From: Microbacterium aurugineum
GTDB taxonomy: Bacteria > Actinomycetota > Actinomycetes > Actinomycetales > Microbacteriaceae
Assembly (NCBI RefSeq): GCF_023101205.1
Contig: NZ_CP078078.1
Span: forward strand, 868,001 to 932,000
DNA length: 64,000 nt
Direction of reading: 5' to 3'
The translations under genes were made by a program, and so were the position numbers. Under the pieces are notes generated by a model. The model worked only from the letters and a program-made list of their open reading frames with translations, ran no database searches and was not told where the DNA came from. Positions 171-59,641 of this stretch are shown in pieces. Each line of letters begins with the position of its first letter. Positions within the stretch are counted from its first letter, which is position 1.

Positions 171-176
171 TAGGCT
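171..176 (+). promoter_or_regulatory. -10 hexamer TAGGCT, leaderless-type promoter of holB
   Basis: TAGGCT is followed by six bases and then the ATG at 183. No Shine-Dalgarno lies between, so transcription probably starts at the start codon. Confidence 0.55.
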
Positions 177-182
177 GAGTAC

Positions 183-1340
183 ATGCCCCAGACCGTTCCC
201 GCTCCCTTCCCGTGGGTGGATGTGTGGGGGCAGGACGCCGCGGTCGACACGCTCCGTGCCGCCGCCTCCGATCCCGCCGCGCTGTCGCACGCCTGGCTGA
301 TCACCGGTCCACCCGGATCAGGAAGATCGACCCTGGCCTATGCCTTCGCGGCCGCGCTGATTGCCGATCACCCCGACGACGAGAACGTGATGCGGCAAGT
401 GCTGGCGGGCACGCATCCCGACGTCACCGCGCTGCGCACCGACAAGGTCATCATCACGATCGCCGAGGCCCGAGGCCTGGTGGAGCGCTCCTACTTCGCC
501 CCCTCCGCCGGGCGATATCGCGTGATCGTGGTCGAAGACGCCGACCGCATGGTCGAGCGCACGTCCAACGTGCTCCTGAAGGCGCTCGAGGAGCCGCCGG
601 AGCAGACGGTCTGGATCCTGTGCGCCCCCAGCGAGGCCGACCTCCTGCCCACGATCCGCTCTCGCGTGCGGTCGTTGCGGCTGACGGAACCGGACGTCGA
701 CGATGTCGCGCGTCTCATCAGCCTGCGCACGGGGGCGGACGAGGCCATCGCCGAGCAGGCCGCTCGGCACGCGCAGCGCCACATCGGCATGGCCCAGAGG
801 CTCGCGACCGACGATGCGGCGCGCCGTCGCCGCGACGAGACGCTGCGATCCGTCCTCGGTGTACGCGGTGTCGGCGATGCCGTCGAGGTCGCCGGCCGGA
901 TCATCCAGGCCGCGACGGAGGATGCGAAGGCGCTCACGGCCGAGCGTGATGCGAGCGAACGCGCCTCCCTGCTGCGCACGATCGGCATCGCGGAGGGGCA
1001 GGCGGTGCCGCCGGCGCTGCGCACCCAGCTGTCCGCGCTCGAAGACGATCAGAAGAAGCGCGCCACCCGGAGTCTGCGCGACGGGATCGACCGGGTGCTC
1101 ACCGACCTGCAATCGCTGTTCCGTGACGTCGTGATGCTGCAGTTCGACCGTGGCGGCGACCTCATCAACCGAGAACTCCGTCCCGAACTCGAGGAGCTCG
1201 CGGCCGTCTGGCCCGTGACCCGTACTCTTGTCGTACTTGACCACCTAGCCGAGACGCGGCAGTCCCTGGAGCGCAATGTCGCTCCGCTGCTCGCCCTGGA
1301 GAGCTTGCTCGTGACGATCGCGAGCGGGAGGAAACCGTGA
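183..1340 (+). CDS. holB: DNA polymerase III subunit delta-prime
   Basis: Clamp-loader subunit that with tau/gamma and delta loads the beta clamp during replication. The 385-residue protein opens with an AAA+ fold. The P-loop at 42-49 reads GPPGSGRS, with Arg in place of the Walker A Lys, which fits delta-prime being a non-ATPase stator. A second conserved block, AEARGLVERSYFAPSAGRYRVIVVEDADR, spans about 95-125 and is followed by LLKALEEPP; the sensor region IRSRVRSL is near 160. The ATG at 183 follows a -10-like hexamer by six bases. The end overlaps the start of the next gene by four bases (ATGA-type), so the two are co-transcribed. Confidence 0.93.
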   Translation: MPQTVPAPFPWVDVWGQDAAVDTLRAAASDPAALSHAWLITGPPGSGRSTLAYAFAAALIADHPDDENVMRQVLAGTHPDVTALRTDKVIITIAEARGLVERSYFAPSAGRYRVIVVEDADRMVERTSNVLLKALEEPPEQTVWILCAPSEADLLPTIRSRVRSLRLTEPDVDDVARLISLRTGADEAIAEQAARHAQRHIGMAQRLATDDAARRRRDETLRSVLGVRGVGDAVEVAGRIIQAATEDAKALTAERDASERASLLRTIGIAEGQAVPPALRTQLSALEDDQKKRATRSLRDGIDRVLTDLQSLFRDVVMLQFDRGGDLINRELRPELEELAAVWPVTRTLVVLDHLAETRQSLERNVAPLLALESLLVTIASGRKP

Positions 1341-2890
1341 ACAACCGATCGACTTCCCGCTTCCGGCGTGCCCTCGGGGTCATCGCCGGCCTCGCCGCGG
1401 CTTCCGTCGCCCTCTCCGGCTGCCTCTACGCGATGATCCCCGAGCAGTCCTCGCGGCCGTCCACGACCGCCGCTCCCGATACCGAGGGTGTGGCAGAAGA
1501 CCTGCTGCCGTTCTACTCGCAGGAATTGACCTGGACCGAGTGCGGCACCGGCTTCGACTGCACCGACGTCACGGCTCCGCTCGACTGGGAGAACCCGGCA
1601 GCGGGCGACATCACGCTCGCGGTCGTGCGCCACCGGGCGGAGGGGACCCCGGTCGGCTCGCTGCTGACCAACCCCGGTGGCCCTGGTGCCAGCGGTGTGG
1701 ACCTCGTCCTGAACAACCTCGGATTCGCCGTCGGGGCCGACCTCATCGAGAACTTCGATGTGATCGGCTTCGACCCGCGCGGAGTCGGCGACTCGACCGC
1801 GGTGACCTGCTACGACGCCCCCGAGATGGACGACTACCTCTACGGCATCCCCGCCGCCGCCCGCGGTACCGCGGAGTGGGAGGCCGAACTGCTCGACGCG
1901 CATAAATCGTTCGCCGAAGCGTGCGATGCGAACAGCGGCGGGATCCTGCCCTACGTCACCACCGTCAACGCCGCCCGCGACATGGATCTGATCCGTGCCG
2001 TGCTGGGCGACAAGCAGCTGAACTACCTCGGCTACTCGTACGGCACATTCCTCGGCGCGACCTACGCCAAGCTCTACCCCGAGAAGGCCGGGCGTCTGGT
2101 GCTCGACGGTGCGATCGATCCCGCTGTCCCCGGCCTCGAGGTCGGCGCGACGCAGGCACTCGGTTTCGAATCGGCGCTGCGCGCCTACATGCAGAGCTGC
2201 CTCGACTCCGGGGAGTGCCCGTTCGCCGGAACGGTCGATGAAGCGATGGCCGATCTCGGAGCGCTGCTGGCGAGCGTCGATCGCACGCCGTTGCAGAGCG
2301 GAGACGGTCGACTCATGGGCGCGGACACCCTGCTGACGGGCATCATCGCGGCGCTCTATTCGCAGGACAACTGGGGATTCCTCACGCAGGCGCTCGATGA
2401 GGCTCTGCAGGGCGACCCGACCTCGGCGTTCCTCCTCGCCGACTTCTACAACAGCCGCGAAGACGGCGTCTACATCGACAACTCCACCGAGGCGTTCCGC
2501 GCATACAACTGCATGGACTACCCAGTGGAGGACGACCCCGCCGCGGAAGCCGCCATCGATGCCAAGATCGCCGAGGGTGCCCCGACCATCGCGCCGTATT
2601 GGAGCGGTCCGGATTCCTGCGAGGTCTGGCCCTATCCGCCGACCGGAACCCGGGGTGAGATCACGGCCGAAGGTGCGGGACCCATCCTGGTGATCGGGAC
2701 GACCAACGACCCGGCGACCCCGTACGAGTGGTCCGAATCGCTCGCGGATCAACTGGAGGAGGGCGTTCTCATCACTCGCGTGGGCGAGGGGCACACCGGC
2801 TACAACAAGGGCAACATCTGCGTCGACGACGCGGTCGAGGCGTTCCTGCTCGACGACGTGGTGCCCGAAGACGGCCTCCGCTGCGAGTGA
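1337..2890 (+). CDS. Secreted alpha/beta hydrolase lipoprotein, TAP-like (tripeptidyl aminopeptidase family)
   Basis: Exported serine hydrolase, 517 residues. A signal peptide with lipobox ALSGC predicts lipidation at Cys29. The catalytic core has the oxyanion segment NPGGPGASG, FDPRGVGDS and nucleophile elbow GYSYG with Ser234. A C-terminal TAP-like domain holds TTNDPATP (candidate acid) and GEGHTGY (candidate His). This is the architecture of Streptomyces SlpD/SlpE and mycobacterial CaeA-type proteases, which trim peptides from the N-terminus. Paired cysteines (CGTGFDC and others) suggest disulfides. It overlaps holB by four bases. The substrate is not readable from the sequence. Confidence 0.85.
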   Translation: MNNRSTSRFRRALGVIAGLAAASVALSGCLYAMIPEQSSRPSTTAAPDTEGVAEDLLPFYSQELTWTECGTGFDCTDVTAPLDWENPAAGDITLAVVRHRAEGTPVGSLLTNPGGPGASGVDLVLNNLGFAVGADLIENFDVIGFDPRGVGDSTAVTCYDAPEMDDYLYGIPAAARGTAEWEAELLDAHKSFAEACDANSGGILPYVTTVNAARDMDLIRAVLGDKQLNYLGYSYGTFLGATYAKLYPEKAGRLVLDGAIDPAVPGLEVGATQALGFESALRAYMQSCLDSGECPFAGTVDEAMADLGALLASVDRTPLQSGDGRLMGADTLLTGIIAALYSQDNWGFLTQALDEALQGDPTSAFLLADFYNSREDGVYIDNSTEAFRAYNCMDYPVEDDPAAEAAIDAKIAEGAPTIAPYWSGPDSCEVWPYPPTGTRGEITAEGAGPILVIGTTNDPATPYEWSESLADQLEEGVLITRVGEGHTGYNKGNICVDDAVEAFLLDDVVPEDGLRCE

Positions 2891-2925
2891 GACCGGCCCG
2901 ATTCGCGAGCGAGCGCGAGACAGGG

Positions 2926-2931
2926 TAATAT
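2926..2931 (+). promoter_or_regulatory. -10 hexamer TAATAT, probable promoter of tRNA-Thr
   Basis: TAATAT lies 28 bases before the tRNA 5' end in an otherwise GC-rich gap. No convincing -35 was found at 16-18 bases upstream. Confidence 0.4.
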
Positions 2932-2959
2932 CGGTGATCGCGCCGCTCACGCGTCGCAC

Positions 2960-3032
2960 GCCGCTTTAGCTCAGTCGGCAGAGCATTTCACTCGTAATGA
3001 AAAGGTCGTCAGTTCGATTCTGACAAGCGGCT
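2960..3032 (+). tRNA. tRNA-Thr, anticodon CGT
   Basis: A complete 73-nt cloverleaf. The acceptor GCCGCTT pairs with AAGCGGC, the D arm is GCTC/GAGC, the anticodon stem TTTCA/TGAAA encloses CTCGTAA, and the T arm is GTCAG/CTGAC. The anticodon CGT reads ACG codons. CCA is not encoded. A strong hairpin follows at once. Confidence 0.96.
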
Positions 3033-3035
3033 CCG

Positions 3036-3074
3036 AAGGCCCCGTGATGCGAAGAACATCACGGGGCCTTTCCC
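3036..3074 (+). terminator. Rho-independent terminator after tRNA-Thr
   Basis: A perfect 14-bp stem (3036-3049 with 3057-3070) closes a 7-base loop, CGAAGAA. The stem ends in CCTTTCCC. It separates the tRNA from pncA. Confidence 0.85.
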
Positions 3075-3086
3075 GTCCCCACGGCG

Positions 3087-3092
3087 TAACCT
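3087..3092 (+). promoter_or_regulatory. -10 hexamer TAACCT, leaderless-type promoter of pncA
   Basis: TAACCT, six bases, then ATG at 3099. No ribosome-binding site is present. Confidence 0.5.
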
Positions 3093-3098
3093 CGAAGT

Positions 3099-3680
3099 AT
3101 GAGTAGAGCGCTTCTCATCGTCGATGTGCAGAACGACTTCACCGAGGGCGGTGCGCTCGAGGTCGTGGGCGGTGATGCGGTGGCCTCCGCCGTCACGGGC
3201 TACCTCGCCGCGCACGCCACGGACTACGAGGTGATCATCGCCTCCCGCGACTGGCATGACGCCGAGGGGGACAACGGCGGTCACTTCGCCGAGACGCCGG
3301 ACTTCATCGACTCCTGGCCGGTGCACTGCGTCGCCGGGACCCCGGGGGCCGACTACGATCCGCTCCTGGTGACCGATTCCGTGACCCACCACGTCCGCAA
3401 GGGTCAGGGCAAGCCCGCCTACTCGATGTTCGAGGGGGAGACCGAAGCACAGGAGACCGTCGGTGAGGTCCTGGCGGCGGCCGGCGTGCTCAGCGCGGAT
3501 GTCGTCGGGATCGCGACGGATCACTGTGTCCGTGCGTCAGCGCTCGACGCGATCGCCCACGGTGTCCACGTCCGCATCCTGACCGACCTCGTCGCGGGGG
3601 TCGCTCCGGAGGCGAGTGAGACCGCGTTGGCCGAGCTCGTGCATGCCGGCGCGGAACTGGTCCAGAGCGCGGACGCGTGA
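3099..3680 (+). CDS. pncA: Nicotinamidase / isochorismatase-family hydrolase
   Basis: Hydrolyses nicotinamide to nicotinate in the Preiss-Handler NAD salvage route; the same enzyme type activates pyrazinamide in mycobacteria. It has 193 residues. The catalytic triad is visible as Asp9 in VDVQNDF, Lys101 in VRKGQG and Cys143 in ATDHCVRASALDA. Metal ligands are Asp51, His53 and His62 in RDWHDAEGDNGGH. The start is set by a -10-like hexamer six bases upstream. It overlaps the DUF1697 gene by four bases. Family membership is certain; nicotinamide as substrate follows from the metal-site motif. Confidence 0.9.
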   Translation: MSRALLIVDVQNDFTEGGALEVVGGDAVASAVTGYLAAHATDYEVIIASRDWHDAEGDNGGHFAETPDFIDSWPVHCVAGTPGADYDPLLVTDSVTHHVRKGQGKPAYSMFEGETEAQETVGEVLAAAGVLSADVVGIATDHCVRASALDAIAHGVHVRILTDLVAGVAPEASETALAELVHAGAELVQSADA

Positions 3681-4210
3681 GTCGTAGCGTCCTCCTGCTG
3701 CGGGCCGTGAACGTCAGCGGGCGCAACAGGGTTCCGATGGGGCGGCTGCGCGACGTGCTGGCAGCCGAGACGGACCTCGCCGATATCTCCACCTACATCG
3801 CCAGCGGGAACATCGTCTGCGCGACTCCACCGGATCCCGAGGCCGCACGCGCTGCTGTCCGTTCCGTGATCCAGCGCGAGTTCGGGGTGGACACGCCCGT
3901 GATCCATCGGACCCATGAGCAGCTGGTCTCGTCGGAGTCCGCGCAGCCCTTTCCCGAAGGGGATGTGACTTTCGTGCACGCGATGTTCCTCGAGGGGCGG
4001 CCTGCGAGTGGTGCGCTCGGAGCGTTGGAGGAACGCCTGCTCCCTGCAGAGCGCCTCGCTCTCGTCGACGACGACCTGTGGATCGACTACGGCGAAGGTG
4101 GCGTGCATTCCACGAAGCTGACGAAGGCGGTGCTCGACCGTGCGCTCGGCGTGGCGGGCACAGCGCGCAACCTCCGCACGATCCGCACGCTCATCGAGCT
4201 GGCCGCGTGA
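3677..4210 (+). CDS. DUF1697 domain protein
   Basis: A 177-residue cytosolic protein of the DUF1697 family, recognised by the opening LLRAVNVSGRNRVPMGRLRDVL, the central TYIASGNIVC and the closing ARNLRTIRTLIEL. The biochemical function of the family is unknown. It starts on GTG inside the pncA stop (four-base overlap), so it is translated from the pncA transcript. Nothing in the sequence shows why it is coupled to nicotinamidase. Confidence 0.82.
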   Translation: MSRSVLLLRAVNVSGRNRVPMGRLRDVLAAETDLADISTYIASGNIVCATPPDPEAARAAVRSVIQREFGVDTPVIHRTHEQLVSSESAQPFPEGDVTFVHAMFLEGRPASGALGALEERLLPAERLALVDDDLWIDYGEGGVHSTKLTKAVLDRALGVAGTARNLRTIRTLIELAA

Positions 4211-4227
4211 TCGTCGACGTCTGAGCC

Positions 4228-4443
4228 TCAGTGCCCTGCACCACCGAGTTCCGCGCTCACCCCGACCGGCGGTGTGTGAGGGTGCGCCTGCAGGTCGACA
4301 CGTCGGGATCCGCAGTCCGCACAGCGCACGTAGAGCACGACGCCCTCGCTCGTCGGGTGTCGGGATTCCACCCGCCAGCCGTGTTCATGGGTCGCGGTCT
4401 CCGGTCGGAGGCGGGGGATCGGGAGGGTGTTCGGCGAGGTCAT
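4228..4443 (-). CDS. Small conserved protein with a CxxC knuckle
   Basis: A 71-residue protein on the minus strand. Its core HGWRVESRHPTSEGVVLYVRC is followed by ADCGSRRVDL, giving a CADC pair that could be half a zinc ribbon. It ends in a His/Pro-rich tail. The ATG at 4443 is preferred over the ATG at 4479, because the longer form would run into the opposite gene's start and its extra residues look unstructured. CACGCT six bases upstream may be a weak leaderless -10. It is divergent from the CGNR gene. Function unknown. Confidence 0.65.
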   Translation of the reverse strand: MTSPNTLPIPRLRPETATHEHGWRVESRHPTSEGVVLYVRCADCGSRRVDLQAHPHTPPVGVSAELGGAGH

Positions 4444-4456
4444 GCATCCAGCGTGA

Positions 4457-4462
4457 TGTAAT
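4457..4462 (+). promoter_or_regulatory. -10 hexamer TGTAAT, leaderless-type promoter of the CGNR gene
   Basis: TGTAAT, six bases, then ATG at 4469. The divergent small gene starts only 25 bases away on the other strand. Confidence 0.45.
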
Positions 4463-4468
4463 GGTCTT

Positions 4469-4984
4469 ATGCATCTCAACCCTTACGGCGAGTATGCGGT
4501 CCTGCTGGCCGCGTCGTTGGCGAACGACTGGCCCGAGGATCGCGCCGGCATCGAGGAGCGCACCCTCGCCCTCGGGATGACGCAGACATTCCCGCCGGCG
4601 CCCGAGGACCATGCGGAAGTCCGAGCGGTCATCGACGACTGGCTCGCGATCGTCGACGAGCCCGATGCCGACGCGAGGGCGCTGCTGCTGAACGCACAGC
4701 TCGCCGCCGCCGCCGCGTACCCGCGGCTGACCAACCACGACGGCGAGGGCTGGCACCTGCACTACCGCGATGACGTGCCGTCGCTGCCCTACGTGCTCCG
4801 GGCGATCATCAGCCTCGGCACGTCGCTGCATCTCGTCACCCGGGGAATGAGCAGGCTCGGGCGCTGCCAGGCCGCGCCGTGCACGAATGTCGTGGCGGAC
4901 GTGACGCGCAACGGTAGCCAGCGGTTCTGCTCCGTGCGCTGCGCCAACCGTGCGGCCGTCCGTCGGCATCGGGCTCGCCTCTGA
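4469..4984 (+). CDS. CGNR zinc-finger / ABATE-domain putative regulator
   Basis: A 171-residue protein. An N-terminal helical region (about 1-125) resembles the stress-linked ABATE domain (DUF1470). A C-terminal CGNR-type zinc finger has Cys133, Cys138, Cys154 and Cys158, followed by NRAAVRRHRAR. Here the signature reads CANR, not CGNR. Family members are thought to bind DNA as transcription regulators, inferred mainly from the finger. The start follows a -10-like hexamer by six bases. The stop lies inside a hairpin shared with the convergent PfpI gene. Confidence 0.8.
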   Translation: MHLNPYGEYAVLLAASLANDWPEDRAGIEERTLALGMTQTFPPAPEDHAEVRAVIDDWLAIVDEPDADARALLLNAQLAAAAAYPRLTNHDGEGWHLHYRDDVPSLPYVLRAIISLGTSLHLVTRGMSRLGRCQAAPCTNVVADVTRNGSQRFCSVRCANRAAVRRHRARL

Positions 4985-5008
4985 GGTCGAGGTCTCGGCC
5001 TCAGAGGC
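4977..5008. terminator. Bidirectional hairpin between convergent CGNR and PfpI genes
   Basis: A 10-bp stem (4977-4986 with 4999-5008) closes a 12-base loop. It contains the CGNR stop codon and ends six bases before the PfpI stop. No U tract follows on either strand. Confidence 0.5.
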
Positions 5009-5014
5009 GCGGAA

Positions 5015-5560
5015 TCAGGCCGTCTGGCCTGCGTGCTTCCCCTCGCCGATCTCCTCGACGAGCTTCGCGTTGAAGGCCGGGAGATCGTCGGGTGTGCGGC
5101 TGGAGACGAGTCCTTCGTCCACGATGACCTCTTCGTCGACCCAGGTCGCTCCGGCATTGCGGAGGTCGGTGGTCAGGCTCGGGTAGCTCGTGAGCGTCCG
5201 GCCGTCCACGACGTCCGCCTCGATGAGGATCCAGGCGCCGTGGCAGATCACGCCGACGGGCTTGTGCTGGTCGAAGAAGGCGCGGGCGAGCGCGATCGAC
5301 GGCTTGTCGAGGCGCAGGTGGTCGGCGTTGACGACACCGCCGGGAAGGACGAGGGCGTCGAAGCTGTCGGCCGCCGCCTCGGAGGCGAGCAGGTCGACGG
5401 CTTGCTCGTGACCGTTCTTCCCTGTGATCGCCGCTCCCGCCGGGGCGATCAGTGTCGCGCTCGCGCCCGCGGCGGTGACCGCCTCCCACGGGCTGGTGAG
5501 CTCGCTGTCCTCGAATCCGTCGGTCGCCAGGAACGCCACTCGGTTGCCGGTGAGGGTCAT
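5015..5560 (-). CDS. DJ-1/PfpI family protein (YraA/YfkM type)
   Basis: A 181-residue protein of the DJ-1/PfpI superfamily with a glutamine-amidotransferase-like fold. The nucleophile elbow GVICHGAW carries Cys106 and His107, and the conserved Glu sits in DGFEDSEL near residue 17. Members act as protein/nucleotide deglycases, glyoxalases or stress proteins; the sequence does not say which. Start ATG 5560 has a good Shine-Dalgarno (AAAGGATGAACG) upstream. It converges with the CGNR gene and diverges from the lipoprotein at 5733. Confidence 0.85.
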   Translation of the reverse strand: MTLTGNRVAFLATDGFEDSELTSPWEAVTAAGASATLIAPAGAAITGKNGHEQAVDLLASEAAADSFDALVLPGGVVNADHLRLDKPSIALARAFFDQHKPVGVICHGAWILIEADVVDGRTLTSYPSLTTDLRNAGATWVDEEVIVDEGLVSSRTPDDLPAFNAKLVEEIGEGKHAGQTA

Positions 5561-5720
5561 CGTTCATCCTTTCGTGGGGAGTCGCCCGCGGATGCGGACG
5601 AGTCGACCCTCTCCCGGAACGAGCGAGGAGTGAAGGGGGTGGCCGGGGAGCGGGGCAGGATGCTAGAGGCGGAGTCGGGCGGTCGCGGAGCGCTCCCGTC
5701 GGATCGGAGTGGGGAGGCAG

Positions 5721-5726
5721 TAGCAT
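5721..5726 (+). promoter_or_regulatory. -10 hexamer TAGCAT, leaderless-type promoter of the 5733 lipoprotein
   Basis: TAGCAT, six bases, then ATG at 5733. Confidence 0.5.
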
Positions 5727-5732
5727 CCAGCC

Positions 5733-6185: not shown

Positions 6186-6212
6186 ACGGGTTCGGTGCGC
6201 TCGTGCTGCGGT

Positions 6213-6285: not shown

Positions 6286-6308
6286 TGCGTCAAGTCTAGT
6301 GCGCAAGA

Positions 6309-6349: not shown

Positions 6350-6423
6350 CTCCTTCTCAGGATCCTCCCCCTACTCCCGAGAAGGGCGTGCGTCGGGTGT
6401 CCTCCCACCCGACAGCGCCCGGC

Positions 6424-7160: not shown

Positions 7161-7233
7161 GAAGAATCTCAGAAATCTTTGAAATCGCTCCGGCAGCGGC
7201 CTCGTCTGCGCGAGACCGGGGCGGAGATACGGC

Positions 7234-7833
7234 ATGCTTATAGGGATGGTCATCGATGGGTTCGACGTTCCCGAGGACGGAGCGACGCAGGATGCTGTCG
7301 CCGACCTCATCGTCCGCGTCGCGTCAGGTGATCAAGCTGCCTTCGCGACTCTCTACGATCTGCTCTCCTCTCGCGTGTTCGGCCTCATCCTCCGTGTGCT
7401 GGTCAACCGCTCGCAGAGCGAAGAAGTGCTTCAAGAGGTCTTTCTGGAGATCTGGCAATCCGCTTCGCGCTTCGCTCCGAACAGAGGTCAGGGACGAGCA
7501 TGGATCATGACGATCGCTCATCGCCGGGCCGTTGATCGGGTGCGTGCATCGCAGTCGAGCGCCGACCGAGACGTACGAGCAGGATTCAAGGACATCGGCG
7601 TCGCGCACGACAGTGTCGCGGAGCAGGTCGAATTGGGGATAGAGGGAGGGAAGGTCGTCGAAGCGCTCTCGGGGCTTCCGGAAGCGCAGCGCGAAGCACT
7701 CGTCCTCGCGTATTACGGCGGTTACAGTCAAAACGAGATCGCGGCCCTCGTGGGCGCGCCGCTGGGGACGATCAAGACACGGATGCGAGACGGGCTGACC
7801 CGTCTGCGCACGGCGATGGGGGTGACGGCATGA
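7234..7833 (+). CDS. sigK: ECF RNA polymerase sigma factor SigK
   Basis: A 199-residue ECF (group 4) sigma factor. Region 2 spans about 35-100 ([22 protein letters not shown] through the IWQSASRF -10 recognition helix). Region 4 is about 140-195, with [28 protein letters not shown] for the -35 element. Homology and context, with rskA overlapping downstream and a fasciclin gene upstream, identify SigK. ATG 7234 has GGAG seven bases upstream; a second ATG at 7246 is possible but has no well-spaced site. It should be held inactive by RskA and released by intramembrane proteolysis after redox or envelope signals. Confidence 0.9.
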
Positions 7834-8641: not shown

Positions 8642-8647
8642 TACCCT
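8642..8647 (+). promoter_or_regulatory. -10 hexamer TACCCT upstream of the 8654 gene
   Basis: TACCCT, six bases (GGAGGG), then ATG at 8654. The spacer also looks like a Shine-Dalgarno but sits too close to the ATG to work as one, so a leaderless start is as likely. Confidence 0.4.
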
Positions 8648-9464: not shown

Positions 9465-9470
9465 TAGGCT
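9465..9470 (+). promoter_or_regulatory. -10 hexamer TAGGCT, leaderless-type promoter of pabC
   Basis: TAGGCT, six bases, then ATG at 9477. This favours the upstream ATG over the internal Met at codon 8. Confidence 0.5.
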
Positions 9471-19385: not shown

Positions 19386-19414
19386 CGACGGCGGGGCGCG
19401 GTAAGGTGGGGGAC

Positions 19415-19528
19415 ATGGACCTCATGGCGCTCGAAATCTTCTTCATCGGCCTGCTGGGCCTCGCGAGCCTCGCTATCGTCTTCGTCTCGGCAGTGGTGCT
19501 GCGCAACCTCTTCCGCGGCCAGCGCTGA
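19415..19528 (+). CDS. Very small single-helix membrane protein (37 aa)
   Basis: A short gene starting at ATG 19415 behind a good Shine-Dalgarno (AAGGTGGGGG). The product is 37 residues: one hydrophobic helix (about residues 7-28, IFFIGLLGLASLAIVFVSAVVL) and a basic tail RNLFRGQR. It sits between a membrane protein gene and the nitrobindin-like gene with gaps of 29 and 7 bases, so all three are probably one transcript. It is easily missed by gene callers. Unknown function; small transport or assembly subunits have this form. Confidence 0.6.
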   Translation: MDLMALEIFFIGLLGLASLAIVFVSAVVLRNLFRGQR

Positions 19529-22106: not shown

Positions 22107-22152
22107 GTCACCATCCTCCCAGGATCCGACTCGGCGGGACGTCCCAGGTGGA

Positions 22153-22158
22153 TAAACT
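22153..22158 (+). promoter_or_regulatory. -10 hexamer TAAACT, leaderless-type promoter of gpmA
   Basis: TAAACT, six bases, then ATG at 22165. Confidence 0.5.
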
Positions 22159-23952: not shown

Positions 23953-23958
23953 TACGCT
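23953..23958 (+). promoter_or_regulatory. -10 hexamer TACGCT, leaderless-type promoter of senX3
   Basis: TACGCT, six bases, then ATG at 23965. A single PHO-like unit, GACGGTGAACG (23937-23947), ends five bases before the hexamer, with a weaker unit before it, so autoregulation is possible. Confidence 0.5.
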
Positions 23959-27136: not shown

Positions 27137-27142
27137 TAGCGT
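27137..27142 (+). promoter_or_regulatory. -10 hexamer TAGCGT, leaderless-type promoter of ispDF
   Basis: TAGCGT, six bases (GAGAGG), then GTG at 27149, directly after the carD terminator. Confidence 0.5.
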
Positions 27143-28451: not shown

Positions 28452-28457
28452 TAGGCT
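28452..28457 (+). promoter_or_regulatory. -10 hexamer TAGGCT, leaderless-type promoter of cysS
   Basis: TAGGCT, six bases, then GTG at 28464. It supports the GTG as the true start. Confidence 0.52.
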
Positions 28458-38656: not shown

Positions 38657-38662
38657 ATTCTG
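38657..38662 (-). promoter_or_regulatory. -10 hexamer CAGAAT, leaderless-type promoter of the 38650 gene
   Basis: On the minus strand CAGAAT, six bases, then ATG at 38650. Confidence 0.4.
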
Positions 38663-39685: not shown

Positions 39686-39691
39686 ACGATA
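39686..39691 (-). promoter_or_regulatory. -10 hexamer TATCGT, leaderless-type promoter of the DUF7882 gene
   Basis: On the minus strand TATCGT, six bases, then ATG at 39679. Confidence 0.5.
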
Positions 39692-45407: not shown

Positions 45408-45474
45408 GACATCCACGCTACGGAGCATCCTCCGGACTCCGCATCCGCCCCAGGTACCGTCTTCTGCTCCGGAC

Positions 45475-45948: not shown

Positions 45949-46941
45949 TCAAGAGAGAAGGTCGTCGACGAGGGCGCGCACGCGGGCGGCGATGTCGTCG
46001 CGGATGGCTTCGACGCCTTCCCGCGACGCGAGGGCGGGATCACCGACGGCCCAGTCGTCGTAGCGCACGCCGGGGATGATCGGGCAGACGTCGCCACAGC
46101 CCATCGTGATGACGACGTCGGCCGCGCGGACGGCGTCGTCGGTGAGCGGCTTCGGGAAGCGCTCGGCAGCCCGGTCGCCTTCGATCTCGGCGAGGATCGA
46201 GCGGACGTGCGGGTGGATGATGTCCGCGGGAGCGGATCCTGCCGAGCGTGCGACGACCTTGCCGGCGGCGAGCGTGTTGACGAGCGCGGCGGCGAGCTGC
46301 GAGCGTCCGGCGTTGGCGACGCAGACGAAGAGCACCTGGGGGACGGACGCATCGCGGTCACGAGTGAGGTCCGCGAGTCGCTGACGCGCGAAGCGCTCGG
46401 TCAGAGGAACGAGGGCGGAAGTGACCCTGGCGGTGCGCGCGAGCGCGGTGTACGACTCACGGACGATGGTGAGCACCACGTCGGGGTCGAGGTCGGGGAT
46501 TTCCGCCGCGAGCTCGTCCGCGAGACGGGTCACGCGGGCGTCGAAGTCCGGTCGCGGGTGATCGTGGTCGCCGGTGACACCCCCGGGTGCGAGCGTCGCG
46601 GGCGCGAACGACTCCAGCAGAGCTGTGACCGCGCTGCGGCGGTTCGGGGTGATCCGATACCAGACCCAGGTTCCTCGCCGCTCGGAGGTGAGGACATCCA
46701 CGTCCTTGAGCACTTTGAGGTGGTGAGAAATCGTCGGTTGCGAGACCTCTGCGAGCTCGGCGAGATCGCAGACACACGACTCCCCGCGCGGGTCGGAGGC
46801 GATGGCGGACAGCATCCGCAGCCGCAGCGGATCCGACAGAGCCTTCAACGTCGCTGCGACCGAGGACGCCGCGTCGAGTCCGATGGCGTGGGTGGCGACG
46901 GGACTGCAAGTGTCGTCCGCGGTGGTCAGGGTGACGTTCAT
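45949..46941 (-). CDS. ArsR repressor-ArsC arsenate reductase fusion protein
   Basis: A 330-residue fusion. Residues about 20-110 are an ArsR winged helix (LKALSDPLRLRMLSAIAS, CVCDLAELAEVSQPTISHHLKVLKDVDVLTSERRGTWVWYR) with a CxC metal-site motif, ESCVCDL. Residues about 125-190 form a helical linker domain seen before LMW-phosphatase ArsC in actinobacteria. Residues about 200-330 are an ArsC domain with P-loop CVANAGRS and second cysteines in ITMGCGDVCP. It may sense arsenite at the promoter and reduce arsenate itself. It overlaps acr3 by four bases. The frame is open far upstream, but ATG 46941 is coupled and correct. Confidence 0.92.
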   Translation of the reverse strand: MNVTLTTADDTCSPVATHAIGLDAASSVAATLKALSDPLRLRMLSAIASDPRGESCVCDLAELAEVSQPTISHHLKVLKDVDVLTSERRGTWVWYRITPNRRSAVTALLESFAPATLAPGGVTGDHDHPRPDFDARVTRLADELAAEIPDLDPDVVLTIVRESYTALARTARVTSALVPLTERFARQRLADLTRDRDASVPQVLFVCVANAGRSQLAAALVNTLAAGKVVARSAGSAPADIIHPHVRSILAEIEGDRAAERFPKPLTDDAVRAADVVITMGCGDVCPIIPGVRYDDWAVGDPALASREGVEAIRDDIAARVRALVDDLLS

Positions 46942-49024: not shown

Positions 49025-49050
49025 TCTATATTGATGCTTGTCGATATCAA
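49025..49050 (-). promoter_or_regulatory. ars operon promoter with candidate ArsR operator
   Basis: Minus strand: TTGATA (49050-49045), then CAATAT (49033-49028) and TATAGA (49030-49025) as alternative -10 elements; CAATAT gives the six-base spacing to ATG 49021. TTGAT and ATCAA form an inverted repeat (49031-49035 with 49046-49050) over the core promoter, fitting an ArsR operator. Confidence 0.5.
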
Positions 49051-49739: not shown

Positions 49740-49745
49740 AGCGTA
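49740..49745 (-). promoter_or_regulatory. -10 hexamer TACGCT, leaderless-type promoter of the SRAP gene
   Basis: Minus strand TACGCT, six bases, then ATG at 49733. The hexamer lies 53 bases from the divergent -10 of the DMT gene. Confidence 0.52.
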
Positions 49746-49797: not shown

Positions 49798-49803
49798 TAG
49801 GGT
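49798..49803 (+). promoter_or_regulatory. -10 hexamer TAGGGT, leaderless-type promoter of the DMT gene
   Basis: TAGGGT, six bases, then GTG at 49810. Confidence 0.48.
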
Positions 49804-51818: not shown

Positions 51819-51824
51819 CAGAAT
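51819..51824 (+). promoter_or_regulatory. -10 hexamer CAGAAT, leaderless-type promoter of the DUF2332 gene
   Basis: CAGAAT, six bases, then ATG at 51831. Confidence 0.4.
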
Positions 51825-51830
51825 GGACGG

Positions 51831-52823
51831 ATGACGGATGCTGTCCAGGAGCGGTATGCGCGCTTCGCTCGTGACGAGGCGCCGGGTCGCAGCGCCCTCT
51901 ACGTCGAATGGGCGGGCGGCATCGCGTCGGACGATGCGGTGCGGGCGGTCCTCCGCCGGATCCCGGAGACGAGGAGGCAGCCGCCGCTGGTGTTCGCCGT
52001 CACCCGGATGCTCGGCGCACCGCTGGCCGCATACCCGCAGTGGCGGCGCTTCGTGCTGCAGCATGCGGACGACATCGTCGTCGAGTGCGCCCGCCGGTCG
52101 CTGCAGACCAACGAGCCGCTTCGACTCGCCGCCCTCCTTCCCGTGCTCTCCGAGATACCCGGCCCGGTGGCATTGCTCGAGGTCGGCGCGGCAGCCGGGC
52201 TCTGTCTCTATCCGGATCGGTATTCGTACCGCGTCGCCGATGAGCACGGGGAGGTGCGTGTCGCACTGGATCCGGTGGACGGACCGTCCTCGGTCGTGCT
52301 GGAGACCCGGGTGTCCGGACCCCTGCCGCCCCTGCGGATACCGGAGGTGGTCTGGCGTGCCGGAATCGACCTGGCTCCGCTCGACGCGGGGGACGAGCGT
52401 GACCGTCGCTGGCTGCGGGGGCTCGTGTGGCCGGGCGAGACGGGACGCGATGAGCGCATCGCCGCTGCCCTCGACATCGTCGCGGCCGATCCTCCGAGGC
52501 TCGTCGCCGGAGATGCGCTGGCGTCCATCGAGGCGCTCGCCGCGTCCGCCCCGAACGACGCCACCCTCGTCATCACGACGCCGGGGGTGCTCGTGCACAT
52601 CCCGTGGGCGTCCCGGAACGCGCTCGTCGCGACCATCGACGGCCTGGACGCGCGCTGGATCACGATCGATCCGCCGGGTGTGCTCGACGTCTGGGAGCCG
52701 CCGGTCGATGCAGACGACTGGCCGGGTTTCGTGGTCGCGCTGGACGGTCGAGTGCGCGCTGCTGCGGATCCGCTCGGGCGCTGGTGGGAGTGGCGAGCGG
52801 CTCTGCCTGCGAACGCGTCCTAA
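51831..52823 (+). CDS. DUF2332 family protein
   Basis: A 330-residue cytosolic protein of DUF2332, common in actinobacteria and uncharacterised. Family blocks are VQERYARFARDEAPGRSALYVEWAGGIASDDAVRAVL, LLEVGAAAGLCLYPDRYSY (resembling an AdoMet-binding loop) and LRGLVWPGETGRDERIAAALDIV. The GAAAGL stretch hints at a methyltransferase-like fold, unproven. Its stop TAA is also the first half of the next gene's -10 hexamer TAACCT. Confidence 0.85.
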   Translation: MTDAVQERYARFARDEAPGRSALYVEWAGGIASDDAVRAVLRRIPETRRQPPLVFAVTRMLGAPLAAYPQWRRFVLQHADDIVVECARRSLQTNEPLRLAALLPVLSEIPGPVALLEVGAAAGLCLYPDRYSYRVADEHGEVRVALDPVDGPSSVVLETRVSGPLPPLRIPEVVWRAGIDLAPLDAGDERDRRWLRGLVWPGETGRDERIAAALDIVAADPPRLVAGDALASIEALAASAPNDATLVITTPGVLVHIPWASRNALVATIDGLDARWITIDPPGVLDVWEPPVDADDWPGFVVALDGRVRAAADPLGRWWEWRAALPANAS

Positions 52824-52826
52824 CCT
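52821..52826 (+). promoter_or_regulatory. -10 hexamer TAACCT, leaderless-type promoter of the DUF3263 gene
   Basis: TAACCT, six bases, then ATG at 52833. It overlaps the DUF2332 stop codon. Confidence 0.45.
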
Positions 52827-53157: not shown

Positions 53158-53163
53158 TAGCAT
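53158..53163 (+). promoter_or_regulatory. -10 hexamer TAGCAT, leaderless-type promoter of the LytR_C gene
   Basis: TAGCAT, six bases, then GTG at 53170. A perfect TTGACA lies at 53140-53145, but only 12 bases upstream, too close for a standard -35. Confidence 0.48.
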
Positions 53164-53169
53164 CGAGGG

Positions 53170-53748: not shown

Positions 53749-53776
53749 CCTCCGGAGGCGACCCGCGCCCGGCGGC

Positions 53777-53805
53777 TTGCACTCGAAGGTGTCGAGTGCC
53801 AGAAT
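53777..53805 (+). promoter_or_regulatory. groEL promoter with a degenerate upstream CIRCE copy
   Basis: TTGCAC (53777-53782), 17 bases, then CAGAAT (53800-53805) form a well-spaced promoter. The same bases include TTGCACTC-N9-GAGTGCCA (53777-53801), a degenerate CIRCE-like repeat overlapping the -35. Confidence 0.65.
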
Positions 53806-53809
53806 GGCG

Positions 53810-53836
53810 TTAGCACTCTCTCACTCTGAGTGCTAA
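53810..53836 (+). promoter_or_regulatory. CIRCE operator of groEL
   Basis: TTAGCACTC (53810-53818), nine bases, GAGTGCTAA (53828-53836): the exact CIRCE consensus bound by the heat-shock repressor HrcA. It covers the predicted transcription start. HrcA is not in this window. Confidence 0.95.
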
Positions 53837-55492
<1,656 letters not shown>

Positions 55493-55506
55493 TCCATCCT
55501 TCCTGA

Positions 55507-55540
55507 CAGAACGCCCCCGGCTTCGGCCGGGGGCGTTCTG
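55507..55540 (+). terminator. groEL terminator
   Basis: A perfect 15-bp stem (55507-55521 with 55526-55540) on tetraloop TTCG, 15 bases after the groEL stop; it also faces the convergent WXG100 gene. Confidence 0.85.
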
Positions 55541-55558
55541 CATTCTCGGGAACCAGTC

Positions 55559-55846
55559 TCAGCGGAACAGGCTCGCCGAATACTGGTCGGCATCGGCGTA
55601 CTGGGAGGCGGCCGATCCGAGCGAGGTGCCGATCGAGTCGAGGACCTGCTCCACATGCAGCTGGGCTCCCTGCCACTGCTCTGCACAGCCCTGGAATGCG
55701 TTGGAGGCGCTTCCGACCCAGGATGTCTGCAGCTGACGGAGCTGGGCCATGAGCGTCGCCGATTCACTCTGCAGGCGCTCGATGGTGGCTCTGACGGCGC
55801 CGTGGGCAGCGTGGACGGCTTCGGTGTCGACGGTGAAGACAGACAT
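55559..55846 (-). CDS. WXG100 family (ESAT-6-like) protein
   Basis: A 95-residue helical hairpin protein. The turn motif is SWVGSASNAF with Trp43 and Gly45, between two long amphipathic helices. Such proteins are dimeric substrates of type VII secretion. A C-terminal YxxxD/E signal is suggested by YADADQ. No EccC or other secretion gene is in the window, so it is an orphan. ATG 55846 has GAAGGAG five bases upstream; the longer frame to 55927 is not needed. It is separated from the groEL terminator by 19 bases. Confidence 0.88.
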   Translation of the reverse strand: MSVFTVDTEAVHAAHGAVRATIERLQSESATLMAQLRQLQTSWVGSASNAFQGCAEQWQGAQLHVEQVLDSIGTSLGSAASQYADADQYSASLFR

Positions 55847-56008
55847 GGGAACTCCTTCTCGTTGGAGCTCCGACGCTAGGTGCGAGGCGGCACCGAGAAT
55901 CATGTCCGTCACGGGAGGACTCGGCACCTGGGGGAAGCCGATCGATCCCGTGAGCCGTGCAGAACTCTCGGCGTCACGGATCGTCCCCTCGTCCGTGGCG
56001 GCTACGGG

Positions 56009-57715
56009 TCAGGGGAGGTCGAGCCGTTCCAACGGCTGCGTGTCCTCGAGCAGGTGTGCGGGGGTCGCGCGGGCCGGTGCGAGGGGGAGGGTGACCGTGA
56101 AGGTCGCTCCGCCGCCCGGGGTCTCCGACACCTCGACGCCCCCGTGCAGCGCCTTCATGATCGACGCGACGATCGCGAGGCCGAGGCCCGATCCCCCTGT
56201 TTCCCTCGCCCGTGAGGTGTCGGCGCGCCAGAATCGCTCGAAGATCTGCTCACGGATCTGCGGCGGGATGCCTTCGCCATGATCCACGACCGCGATGCTC
56301 CCGGTGCCGCGGACGCGGTCGGAGTCGACGATGAGTTCGATCGGCCCGTCCTCGGGGGAGAAGCGGCGGGCATTTCCCAGCAGGTTGGTGACGACCTGGC
56401 GCACCTTGTTCTCCTCCCCGAGCACGATCGGAGGCGTCCGCACGGGGATGTCCGGGATCTCGGTGAAGTCGATGGCCGGAGCCGGCTCGGGAGCACGGGG
56501 ACGGCGACGCAGACGGGAGAGTGCTGTCCGGGAGAGTCCGCGGGGAGCCGGGGACGCGGCATCCTGCGGTTGCGGGGAAGGAGTGATGCGCAAAGGGGTC
56601 GTGGCCGGGGCGCCGACGGTCCGGTCGATCACGGTGACCGTCCGGCCCGGAGCGGCGGCGCGCAGGTCGAGTGCAGCGTCGCGTGCGATCGGACGCAGAT
56701 CGAGCGGGACGATCTCCGGTTCCCGCTCCTCGTCCAGGCGTGCCAGCGCGAGGAGGTCCTCCACGAGGACGCCCATCCGGATCGCTTCCTTCTCGATGCG
56801 CTCCATGGCTCTGGCGGTGTCCTCCTCGCCCTTGATCGCGCCCATCCGATAGAGCTCCGCATACCCGCGAACGCTCACGAGGGGTGTGCGCAACTCATGG
56901 CTGGCGTCGCCGATGAAACGTCGCATGTGCTGCACGGTCCGGTCGCGCTGCGCGAGCGAGCGGTCGACACGATCGAGCATCGTGTTGATCGCCGCGTTCA
57001 GACGGCCGACCTCCGTCGTCGGCTCGAGATCGGTGAGGCGCTGCCGGAAGTCGCCGGCGGCGATCGACATGGCGGTCGCCTCGACCTGGCCGAGTCTGCG
57101 GAAGGTCAGGGTGACGAGGCCGCGAGTGAGCAGCGCGGCGACGAGGATCGTGATCAGGGCGATTGTGATGTAGATACCGAAGTACTGGCTGACGATACGA
57201 TCCGCCGGTGCGAGCGGCAGGGCGACCAGCTGGATGCGGAGCGCGCCCCCGCTTCCCTCCGAGCCCACCACGGCGACCGCGGCGTGGAAGACCTCGCCAT
57301 CGGGTCCTGCGAGCTCGATCGGGGTGCGTTCGGAATCGGCGGTCGCCTTGGCGAGCGAATACTCGGAGGGGAAGAGGGGCGACGGGCCGGAGGTGCCGCG
57401 CGCGGTGGCCCGCAGCACCCCGGTCGCATCGTAGATGGCGAAGGAGAAGTCCCGCGGCTGCTCTTCGCGCGGTGTGTAGGTGGTGGTTCCGTCCACCGTC
57501 GCGGTCTCGAAGTACCGTTCCACGAGATCACCGGAGACCAGCGCGGGAAGCTGCGCATCGATGTTCGCGACGAGGGCGTTGCGCAGGATCGGCACCGTTC
57601 CGATGCCTGCCACCAGTAGCCCGAGCGCCAGGACGGCCACCGTGACTCCGGTCACCTTCGCCCGGAGGCTGATGCGGCGCCACCAGCTGGTGACCGCATC
57701 GGGCTTGTGCGCCAT
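56009..57715 (-). CDS. HAMP-containing sensor histidine kinase
   Basis: A 568-residue kinase. Membrane helices at about 17-40 and 160-185 flank an extracytosolic sensor of about 120 residues. HAMP follows (about 185-240), then HisKA with phospho-His in GDASHELRTPLVSVRGYAELY. A proline/arginine-rich insert of about 60 residues (PQPQDAASPAPRGLSRTALSRLRRRPRAP) breaks the ATPase domain, which otherwise has NLLGNARRFSPEDGP, DHGEGIPPQIREQIFERFWR and GGSGLGLAIVASI. It pairs with the regulator 62 bases upstream. TrcS/MprB-like in layout; signal unknown. Confidence 0.9.
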   Translation of the reverse strand: MAHKPDAVTSWWRRISLRAKVTGVTVAVLALGLLVAGIGTVPILRNALVANIDAQLPALVSGDLVERYFETATVDGTTTYTPREEQPRDFSFAIYDATGVLRATARGTSGPSPLFPSEYSLAKATADSERTPIELAGPDGEVFHAAVAVVGSEGSGGALRIQLVALPLAPADRIVSQYFGIYITIALITILVAALLTRGLVTLTFRRLGQVEATAMSIAAGDFRQRLTDLEPTTEVGRLNAAINTMLDRVDRSLAQRDRTVQHMRRFIGDASHELRTPLVSVRGYAELYRMGAIKGEEDTARAMERIEKEAIRMGVLVEDLLALARLDEEREPEIVPLDLRPIARDAALDLRAAAPGRTVTVIDRTVGAPATTPLRITPSPQPQDAASPAPRGLSRTALSRLRRRPRAPEPAPAIDFTEIPDIPVRTPPIVLGEENKVRQVVTNLLGNARRFSPEDGPIELIVDSDRVRGTGSIAVVDHGEGIPPQIREQIFERFWRADTSRARETGGSGLGLAIVASIMKALHGGVEVSETPGGGATFTVTLPLAPARATPAHLLEDTQPLERLDLP

Positions 57716-57777
57716 GCGGTCCTCCTCGGTGCGGCGAACACGCCGCTGTGCGGCGTCGAGTGGTGGTGGCCCGGGGG

Positions 57778-58470
57778 TCAGGCCGACTTGCCGACCTTCA
57801 ACATGTATCCGAAGCCGCGCTTCGTCTGGATCAGCGACTCCTCGGTGTGGGGATCGATCTTGCGGCGAAGGTACGAGATGTAGCTCTCGACGATGCCCGC
57901 GTCACCGTTGAAGTCGTACTCCCACACGTGGTCGAGGATCTGCGCCTTCGACAGCACACGGTTCGGGTTGAGCATCAGGTAGCGCAGCAGCTTGAACTCG
58001 GTCGGGCTGAGCTCGATCGGCTCCTTGCCCACGTGGACGTCATGGGTGTCCTGGTCCATCGACAACTCGCCGGCACGGATGATCGACTCCTCGTCGGCCT
58101 GCATGGTGCGGCGGAGGATCGCCTGCGCTCTGGCCACGATCTCGTCGAGGCTGAACGGCTTGGTGACGTAGTCATCACCGCCGGCGTTGAGCCCCTCGAT
58201 CTTGTCGTCGGTGCCGTCCTTCGCCGTCAGGAAGAGGATCGGGGCGGTGAAACCGGCGCCGCGGAGGCGCTTGGTCACGCTGAACCCGTTCATGTCCGGG
58301 AGCATGACGTCCAGGATGATCAGGTCCGGTTCCTCTTCGAGGACGGCCGAGATCGTGGCGGCGCCGTTGGCGACCGTCTTCACCTGGAATCCGGCGAAGC
58401 TGAGACCCGTGGAGAGCAGGTCGCGGATGTTGGGTTCGTCATCGACGACCAGGATGCGCGGAGCAGTCAT
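57778..58470 (-). CDS. OmpR-family response regulator
   Basis: A 230-residue regulator, first gene of the pair with the HAMP kinase. The receiver has VVDDEPNIRDLL, phospho-Asp in LIILDVMLPDMNG and Lys in DYVTKPFSLDE. The winged helix reads LSPTEFKLLRYLMLNPNRVLSKAQILDHVWEYDFNGDAGIVESYISYLRRKI. It resembles the TcrX/TrcR/PrrA class of mycobacteria. CATAAT lies six bases before ATG 58470. Confidence 0.93.
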   Translation of the reverse strand: MTAPRILVVDDEPNIRDLLSTGLSFAGFQVKTVANGAATISAVLEEEPDLIILDVMLPDMNGFSVTKRLRGAGFTAPILFLTAKDGTDDKIEGLNAGGDDYVTKPFSLDEIVARAQAILRRTMQADEESIIRAGELSMDQDTHDVHVGKEPIELSPTEFKLLRYLMLNPNRVLSKAQILDHVWEYDFNGDAGIVESYISYLRRKIDPHTEESLIQTKRGFGYMLKVGKSA

Positions 58471-58476
58471 GTCCCC

Positions 58477-58482
58477 ATTATG
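58477..58482 (-). promoter_or_regulatory. -10 hexamer CATAAT, leaderless-type promoter of the 58470 regulator
   Basis: Minus strand CATAAT, six bases, then ATG at 58470. Confidence 0.5.
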
Positions 58483-58621
58483 GTGACTCCGGCCATGCGG
58501 ATGCTGACTATTGTGCGGAACGGCGTGGAGTCGCGCTCTCCCGGGAGGCCGCCGACGCGCTCGTCACCCCGCGGGAAACGACATCATTCCGGGGTGGGAG
58601 GAGAGGCACAGGTGAACAGGC

Positions 58622-58627
58622 CAGGAT
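58622..58627 (+). promoter_or_regulatory. -10-like CAGGAT upstream of the CPBP gene
   Basis: CAGGAT, six bases, then ATG at 58634. Weak as a hexamer but with the same spacing as the other genes. Confidence 0.35.
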
Positions 58628-58633
58628 TGAGAC

Positions 58634-59641
58634 ATGAGCTCGAACGAGGACGCGTCCGCCGCCCCCGCCCCGCCCACACTCTCGCCTGCCACGCAGATCC
58701 CGTACCACCGCCTGGCGCACCTGCGACCGCGATATCGCTGGTGGCGGCCGCTCCTCACCGGGCTCCTCGCCCTCGCGTTCTACATCGTCCTCCTCCTCGT
58801 CCTGACGGTGCCCCTGGTCGTCGCAGCGGTGGTCATCCCGGGGTGGGGCGACGAGATGATGGTGCTCCTCACCTCCGTGCGGTACTTCGATCTCGACCGT
58901 CCCTGGCTGCTGATCGCGCTGGTGCTCCCCTTGATCCTGATGATCCCGGCCCTGCTGCTGGCATCCCGGGTCGTGGAAGGCCGTGGCGTCGGGCTGCTGT
59001 CCTCGGTCACGGCACGACTGCGGATGGGGTGGCTCGGGAAGAGCCTCCTGCTGGCGCTCGCGGTGTTCGCCGTGTACTTCGCCGTCGTGCTGGGGTGGTC
59101 GGCGCTCGCCGGAGAGGCGGTGGTCGCTGACTTCTCGCACCCCGGACTGTGGATCATGGTCCTCCTCGTGCTGCTGCTGATCCCCTTCCAGGCAGCCGCA
59201 GAGGAGTACGTCTTCCGCGGCTACCTCATGCAGCTGGTCGGCAGCTGGCTCCGGCATCCGGCCTTCGCCATCCTGCTGCCCGTCCCCTTGTTCGTCCTCG
59301 GCCACGGCTACGACGTCTGGGGCGCTGCGAGCGTGGGGGCCTTCGCGATCGTCGCCGCCTGGCTGACCTGGCGGACCGGCGGCCTCGAGGCGGCGATCTC
59401 CCTGCACATCGTCAACAACGTGCTCATCTTCCTGCTCGGATCCGTCGCCCTCGTCGATGCGAACGCCACGTCGGGAACGGCGGCGGACCTCGTCGGCTCG
59501 ATGATCGCGATGGTCGTGTACGCGGTGCTCGCCGACCGGTGGGCGCGACGCCTCGGTGTCACGCGCACGGCGACGGCGCCCGTGCCCGCACCGGCCCGGC
59601 GCGAGGGGACCCATCATCTGCCGCGCGCCCTGCACGGCTGA
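58634..59641 (+). CDS. CPBP-family intramembrane glutamic protease
   Basis: A 335-residue membrane protein with about eight helices. The Abi/CPBP motifs are all present: EEYVFRGYLMQL (catalytic Glu-Glu and Arg), a GHGYDVWG His motif and SLHIVNN. Family members cleave within membranes, e.g. Rce1, or mature and resist bacteriocins. Substrate unknown. The first 40 residues are a Pro/Ala-rich cytosolic tail. It stands alone, convergent with the XPB helicase. Confidence 0.88.
   Translation: MSSNEDASAAPAPPTLSPATQIPYHRLAHLRPRYRWWRPLLTGLLALAFYIVLLLVLTVPLVVAAVVIPGWGDEMMVLLTSVRYFDLDRPWLLIALVLPLILMIPALLLASRVVEGRGVGLLSSVTARLRMGWLGKSLLLALAVFAVYFAVVLGWSALAGEAVVADFSHPGLWIMVLLVLLLIPFQAAAEEYVFRGYLMQLVGSWLRHPAFAILLPVPLFVLGHGYDVWGAASVGAFAIVAAWLTWRTGGLEAAISLHIVNNVLIFLLGSVALVDANATSGTAADLVGSMIAMVVYAVLADRWARRLGVTRTATAPVPAPARREGTHHLPRALHG

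Follow-up and report, generated by a model that had tools for sequence, protein, structure and literature searches.

Many genes in one stretch of the Microbacterium aurugineum chromosome are preceded by a -10-like hexamer that ends a few bases before the start codon, which raises the question of whether these genes are transcribed from the first base of the codon itself. The stretch (the window) comprises 64,000 nucleotides, bases 868001-932000 of a 3.63 Mb chromosome (contig NZ_CP078078.1), has a GC content of ~68%, and carries a cysS gene whose closest named relatives are from Microbacterium (82-83% protein identity). An earlier note made from the letters of the window listed 20 genes in which the hexamer ends exactly six bases before ATG or GTG and proposed that their mRNAs are leaderless. 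The analysis described here leaves us highly confident that the listed genes have sigma-A-type promoters, with the -10 element placed so that transcription would begin on the start codon and produce leaderless mRNAs.

Frequency and form of the hexamer before start codons

Gene starts were called with a home-made program that relies solely on codon usage and the type of start codon, so the motif played no part in their choice. The own-genome set consisted of the window together with 40 20-kb stretches of its chromosome (864 kb; 791 genes, 768-770 of them usable), and the genus set held 1129 genes in 60 stretches from 22 congeneric relatives. We observed TANNNT (N, any base) before the 768 own-genome starts 103 times at gap 6, meaning six bases between hexamer and codon, 20 times at gap 7 and 7 times at gap 8; each of the remaining gaps from 0 to 19 held 0-3 occurrences, or about 2 per gap. 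The genus set gave 144, 42 and 17 at gaps 6, 7 and 8 and no more than 3 at any other gap. When the upstream regions of 770 genes were shuffled in 200 rounds, the count at gap 6 averaged 3.6 and never exceeded 10. The genome-wide comparison that the earlier note proposed thus favors its claim, and gap 6 is far commoner than its neighbors, the point on which that claim could have failed. The excess is also seen when genes are not called at all: TANNNT-N6-ATG occurs 391 times in the whole chromosome versus 139 for the backward pattern, and TANNNT-N7-ATG 177 times versus 112. A raw count of TANNNT-Nk-RTG (ATG or GTG) on both strands of the window gave 16 for k=6, 6 for k=7, none for k=5 and 1-5 at each other gap from 0 to 15.

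All 20 of the listed hexamers were located at gap 6, 14 of them TANNNT, five CANNNT and one TGTAAT, as were the gaps of seven described for 45407 and 63352 and of eight for 61317. The description of the gap as constant holds in that it is mostly 6, but gaps 7 and 8 also occur and are kept at particular genes. Likewise, of the forms that had been named, TANNNT and CANNNT are enriched (CANNNT stands at gap 6 in 28/768 starts, with ~5 expected), while TGTAAT is doubtful, since TGNNNT is found at gap 6 in just 2/768 starts and is not enriched as a class. Hexamers that keep the first T and carry other second or sixth letters are at background, with 1-4/768 at gap 6. Taken together, the classes above background, which include the VANNAT hexamers described below (V, any of A, C and G), account for 159/768 own genes (20.7%) and 243/1129 genes in the genus loci (21.5%).

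The 103 gap-6 TANNNT hexamers have G at position 3 in 62% of cases and C at position 5 in 61%. Position-3 G is also common at gap 7, in 9/20 own-genome and 74% of 42 genus hexamers; the gap-7 hexamers are out of frame, and the idea that a stop codon in the hexamer acts as a functional barrier was rejected for this reason. The base just before the codon at gap 6 is C in 53% and G in 38%. G occupies the second position beyond the hexamer in 67, 65 and 57% of sites at gaps 6, 7 and 8 (n = 103, 20 and 7), and its equal distance from the hexamer at all three gaps indicates that this G is tied to the hexamer and not to the codon. Work in E. coli has described a discriminator contact by sigma region 1.2, which would behave in the same way. 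Shine-Dalgarno motifs were found in 1/103 gap-6 genes versus 225/638 other genes. The gap-6 starts comprise 75 ATG, 28 GTG and no TTG, a codon that the caller handicaps (9/610 among other genes). A same-strand upstream gene less than 15 bp away, suggestive of a place inside an operon, is present for 8/103 gap-6 genes versus 200/610 others. We found no -35 element: TTGNNN at a spacer of 15-20 precedes 5/103 TANNNT sites, with 2 and 4 at control distances. Nor was the TG of an extended -10 element a feature of this class, being present in 3/103 own-genome and 1/144 genus sites.

Competing explanations and known systems

With the -10 element in this position, RNA polymerase would begin transcription with the initial base of the start codon; the mRNA, having neither a leader nor a Shine-Dalgarno site, would be translated by the leaderless route. 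We infer the transcription start on the codon, the identity of the sigma factor and leaderless translation from the DNA letters. The features of this reading that are testable in sequence agree with the earlier note, namely the gap peak, the lack of Shine-Dalgarno motifs, the use of ATG and GTG only, the hexamer-anchored G, the mostly pyrimidine filler at the longer gaps of cysS and the nearly complete conservation among genus relatives.

A gap-6 motif could also be an artefact of start calling, in which an in-frame TAG or TAA at -12 leads the caller to the first ATG after the stop, and 75/103 gap-6 hexamers (73%) do begin with TAG or TAA. However, TA[CT]NNT, which is never a stop, is found 28 times at gap 6, 11 times at gap 7 and 0-2 times elsewhere, and on this control the artefact was rejected. 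The other in-frame gaps (0, 3, 9 and 12) are not raised, the out-of-frame hexamers at gap 7 are also in excess, and the motif of cysS is conserved across the class; we give this explanation practically no weight. A second alternative is that the hexamer is not a promoter but a translation-linked signal, or a regulator site that acts in RNA. In its favor, the hexamer is positioned relative to the start codon, and a search for a -35 element found none. The discriminator G, however, tracks the hexamer and not the codon, and an upstream TG, as in an extended -10 element, is seen in 9/34 VANNAT sites versus 3/103 TANNNT sites. In Corynebacterium glutamicum, moreover, transcription starts have been mapped 3-11 nt after a TAnnnT -10 element, according to the part of that report drawn on here (PMC3890552). 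A signal acting in RNA is thus very improbable, if slightly less so than the artefact.

Several points weigh against a promoter that begins transcription exactly on the codon. The starts come from a home-made caller. These genes may have leaders of one or two bases, because G often stands before the codon at gap 6 (39/103) and because gaps 7 and 8 leave room for them. At gap 7, a pyrimidine precedes the codon in 17/20 own-genome genes versus 369/638 others (p 0.02), but the whole genus set shows no such preference (26/42), and the gap-7 family of 63352 has G before the codon in 10/10 members. Finally, to call the hexamers the chief promoters of these genes goes beyond what sequence alone can say.

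Leaderless genes have long been known in actinobacteria, so their presence in Microbacterium is expected and the phenomenon itself is ordinary. In the portion used here, Zheng et al. (2011; PMC3160421) predicted TA-led genes, with TANNNT ~12 bp upstream, in 86/89 actinobacterial genomes at a mean of 19.2% of genes. Our results share with theirs the TANNNT position ~12 bp before the start, the proportion of about a fifth of genes and the contrast with Shine-Dalgarno-led genes. Theirs, as far as that portion goes, are genome averages, with switching of initiation signals proportional to 16S distance; here, single genes were followed, cysS was found to be leaderless-type class-wide, and two -10 classes were separated. 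For Mycobacterium tuberculosis, the corresponding part of Cortes et al. (2013; PMC3898074) reports that leaderless genes make up 26% of genes with a primary start, that both ATG and GTG are used, as here, and that 7/14 transfer RNA synthetase genes with a primary start are leaderless. That set was measured by RNA sequencing, whereas ours is predicted from sequence in another genus. In C. glutamicum, 33% of genes were measured to be leaderless, with AUG at 79% and GUG at 21%; the same part of PMC3890552 has the TAnnnT -10 element in common with our results, describes the -35 as weak and discusses extended -10 promoters. We met no separate VANNAT class in that part, and the starts measured there are predicted here. 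The practical value of the signature is that it aids the placing of start codons where RNA data are lacking and brings small genes to light.

Conservation in the genus and of cysS across the class

Orthologous starts were collected from the 60 stretches of the genus set together with two loci from named Microbacterium, and the motif was sought within 30 bases of the aligned start, a range that favors its detection. Of 65 window genes, the tally left out the mis-called open reading frames (ORFs) 19406 and 19137 and 8 genes that had no orthologs; the window starts 3099, 23965, 45407 (minus strand) and 53170 were placed manually at the leaderless position for this comparison. TANNNT stands at gap 6-8 in 16 of the window genes; the motif was kept in 188/190 of their orthologous starts, and at the same gap in 165/190, while the middle letters of the hexamer vary among orthologs. 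Three CANNNT families kept CANNNT in 16/22 orthologs. How often such a search finds the motif falsely can be read from the 36 unclassed families, which gave TANNNT at 0/416 starts and CANNNT at 11, 7 of them in the family of 22106 (minus strand), and from a control point inside cysS, where the motif was found in 0/82 loci. Particular gaps are also kept: gap 8 in 11/11 XPB helicase genes, and gap 7 in 10/10 orthologs of 63352 and 4/4 of 45407. In wider loci, TANNNT was found for gpmA in 10/15; for carD, TANNNT at gap 6-8 was lacking in 26/26 loci, most of which have, by eye, a GAAAGG-like stretch before the start. These patterns indicate that the leaderless-type arrangement is gene-specific and evolutionarily kept.

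The cysS gene of the window has TAGGCT at 28452-28457 (plus strand), at gap 6 from GTG 28464, and the motif was present in 24/24 genus orthologs. Beyond the genus, a search from 48 bases upstream to 30 downstream of the aligned start found TANNNT at gap 6-8 in 36/36 actinobacterial loci of a named collection (35/36 in an earlier pass with another alignment choice, as L046 aligned only from residue 65), in 14/15 loci that represent 15 further families of the order, and in 61/63 loci of an even draw of the class Actinomycetes. The class set started from 69 genomes, of which the own genome, G023 and G027 were not recounted (G023 and G027 being in the order set already) and G181, G189 and G205 were dropped for having mshC-like best matches; the locus collections overlap in places. 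The exceptions are L183 (a match in two pieces), L252 and L282 (divergent copy, 39% identity). In other classes of the phylum, the picture is mixed: 6/20 best-matching loci have a motif, which is CANNNT in one case. The set from other bacteria held 44 loci, one labelled only 'bacterium'; the motif was found at 1/44, where it lies 30 bases off the aligned start.

The base before the cysS start codon is a pyrimidine in 13/73 loci at gap 6, in 25/30 at gap 7 and in 8/8 at gap 8. Loci fetched after the idea of such a pyrimidine filler had arisen followed it in 13/15 cases at gap 7 and 3/3 at gap 8. Read most simply, these counts would have polymerase begin at the first purine that it meets from the seventh base downstream of the hexamer onward, and at all three gaps that purine is mostly the start codon. 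We also considered the idea that GTG is retained in cysS to let transcription begin with GTP. It is weakened by the presence of ATG in 11/61 class loci, and also by some leader-bearing genes that keep GTG equally well in the genus (11665, minus strand, 17/17; 14963, minus strand, 14/14). We suggest tentatively, and with rather less than even confidence, that leaderlessness is a gene-specific trait under selection. On this view, the cysS start codon would have stayed fused with the point where its transcription begins through nearly the whole class while the letters of the hexamer, the gap (6-8) and the codon drift, the pyrimidine filler keeping the codon as the first usable purine. If so, leaderless initiation would be functionally required for the regulation of this enzyme and would be no relic. 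The conservation of cysS and its filler make the question of a drifting relic versus a selected state testable on a single essential gene.

A second hexamer class and the individual sites

Hexamers of the form [ACG]ANNAT were also in excess at gap 6, with 34 in the own genome versus 4.3 per gap and 52 in the genus set versus 5.7 per gap; GANNAT accounts for 11/768 and AANNAT for 5/768 own-genome starts. The fifth letter is A in 18/28 gap-6 CANNNT sites versus 27/108 CANNNT hexamers elsewhere upstream, and TG stands at the extended -10 place in 21/52 genus VANNAT sites (several of them orthologs of few genes) in addition to the own-genome sites given above. Sites that lack the first T thus tend to carry A as their fifth letter, and some of them also have an extended -10 element; TG is enriched in the class but is not one of its constant features. 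Shine-Dalgarno-like motifs are commoner than in the TANNNT class (8/34 own, 5/52 genus), indicating that the class includes some chance matches, such as AGGAT.

These sites may be weak sigma-A -10 elements helped by an extended element, or they may be read by a different sigma factor or depend on an activator. In favor of the latter, the T and V families do not interconvert: no C was found among the T-family orthologs with their 188 T, and no T in the 22 orthologs of the three C families or in the 19 of 22106. TG, furthermore, is present in just 9/34 own-genome V sites. On the other hand, VANNAT shares the gap and the G discriminator with TANNNT, its logo shows no distinct -35, and its enrichment in TG agrees with an extended -10 element. 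A separate sigma factor or activator is therefore unlikely, although clearly less so than either of the alternatives to a promoter weighed above. We met neither this class nor the filler rule nor the class-wide fixation of cysS in the parts of the open-licence literature covered, which is a weak negative. For leaderless transcription in Microbacterium, the open-licence match concerned Corynebacterium, and for Microbacteriaceae none was on transcription by title; the best 15 of 323 open-licence matches for leaderless cysS held nothing on point, and no class-wide study of a single leaderless gene appeared by title among the matches listed.

The other sites of the window are given by hexamer, and lie on the plus strand at gap 6 unless stated. 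TANNNT was kept in every ortholog found for TAACCT at 3087-3092 (ATG 3099, pncA-like; 7/7), TACCCT at 8642-8647 (ATG 8654; 17/17), TAGGCT at 9465-9470 (ATG 9477, pabC; 17/17), TAAACT at 22153-22158 (ATG 22165, gpmA; 21/21 in the genus), TACGCT at 23953-23958 (ATG 23965, a senX3-like kinase; 17/17), TAGCGT at 27137-27142 (GTG 27149, ispDF; 22/22), TAACCT at 52821-52826 (ATG 52833, DUF3263; 11/11) and TAGCAT at 53158-53163 (GTG 53170, LytR_C; 10/10). The same was true on the minus strand for TATCGT at 39686-39691 (ATG 39679, DUF7882; 3/3), TACGCT at 49740-49745 (ATG 49733, SRAP; 6/6), TAGCGT at 45415-45420 (gap 7, ATG 45407, an ABC transporter ATPase), TAGGCT at 63360-63365 (gap 7, ATG 63352) and TAAACT at 61326-61331 (gap 8, ATG 61317, XPB helicase). 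The two bases before the ATG of the XPB helicase gene (59677-61331, minus strand) are pyrimidines in 11/11 relatives. TAGGGT at 49798-49803 (GTG 49810, a YdcZ-type exporter) was kept in 7/9 orthologs, the single ortholog found for TAGGCT at 171-176 (ATG 183, holB) is leaderless-type with gap 7, and TAGCAT at 5721-5726 (ATG 5733) had no ortholog in the loci.

Among sites that lack the first T, CATAAT at 58477-58482 (minus strand, ATG 58470, response regulator) was CANNNT in 10/11 orthologs, the remaining one being GATAAT; CAGAAT at 51819-51824 (ATG 51831, DUF2332) was CANNNT in 5/9, three of the rest being GANNAT; and CAGGAT at 58622-58627 (ATG 58634, CAAX protease family) was kept in 1/2. CAGAAT at 38657-38662 (minus strand, ATG 38650), of an enriched class, had no ortholog in the loci. 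GAGGAT at 22113-22118 (minus strand, ATG 22106), a VANNAT hexamer absent from the earlier list, has 19 orthologs, none with T first. CATGCT at 7233-7238 (gap 7, ATG 7246, an ECF-like sigma factor) is a further and less sure candidate absent from that list; by eye, CATGCT lies near the start in most of 13 relatives. TGTAAT at 4457-4462 (ATG 4469, a CGNR zinc finger protein by Pfam) is doubtful as a promoter of this kind, yet the site and the preceding TGA were kept in 5/5 orthologs. Around this start (4440-4490, plus strand), ~35 bases across the codon are nearly identical in 5/5 relatives, and this conserved DNA is a candidate regulator site or unusual promoter. The genes 4469, 38650, 49021 and 58634 are less certain members of the leaderless-type set.

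TAAGGT at 19402-19407 (gap 7, ATG 19415), also absent from the earlier list, precedes a leaderless-type ORF of 37 codons (19415-19528, plus strand) that surfaced in the orthology search at the mis-called start 19406. The ORF and its stop codon are present in 19/19 genus loci, and at each of them TANNNT precedes the ORF with a gap of 6 or 7. It was matched in 13/59 genomes of the order, own included, and a search from 30 bases upstream to 15 downstream found an in-frame ATG close by, with TANNNT ending 6 or 7 bases ahead of it, in 12/12 fetched order loci, again including its own. The predicted peptide is hydrophobic, with one hydrophobic stretch by eye and the C-terminal residues LFRGQR, and its ORF lies upstream of a THAP4-like heme-binding gene (19536). 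It gave no Pfam match at E 0.01, no NCBIfam match at 0.001 and no PDB match, and we judge it by eye to be a single-span membrane peptide.

CAATAT at 49028-49033 (minus strand, ATG 49021) precedes trxB and had no ortholog in the loci. This gene heads an ars cluster that also contains genes for ACR3 and arsenate reductase. An inverted repeat, TTGAT-N10-ATCAA (49031-49050, minus strand), overlaps the CAATAT -10 hexamer and could be the operator of a repressor. A single ORF at 45952-46941 (minus strand) fuses an ArsR-type regulator with an arsenate-reductase-like domain.

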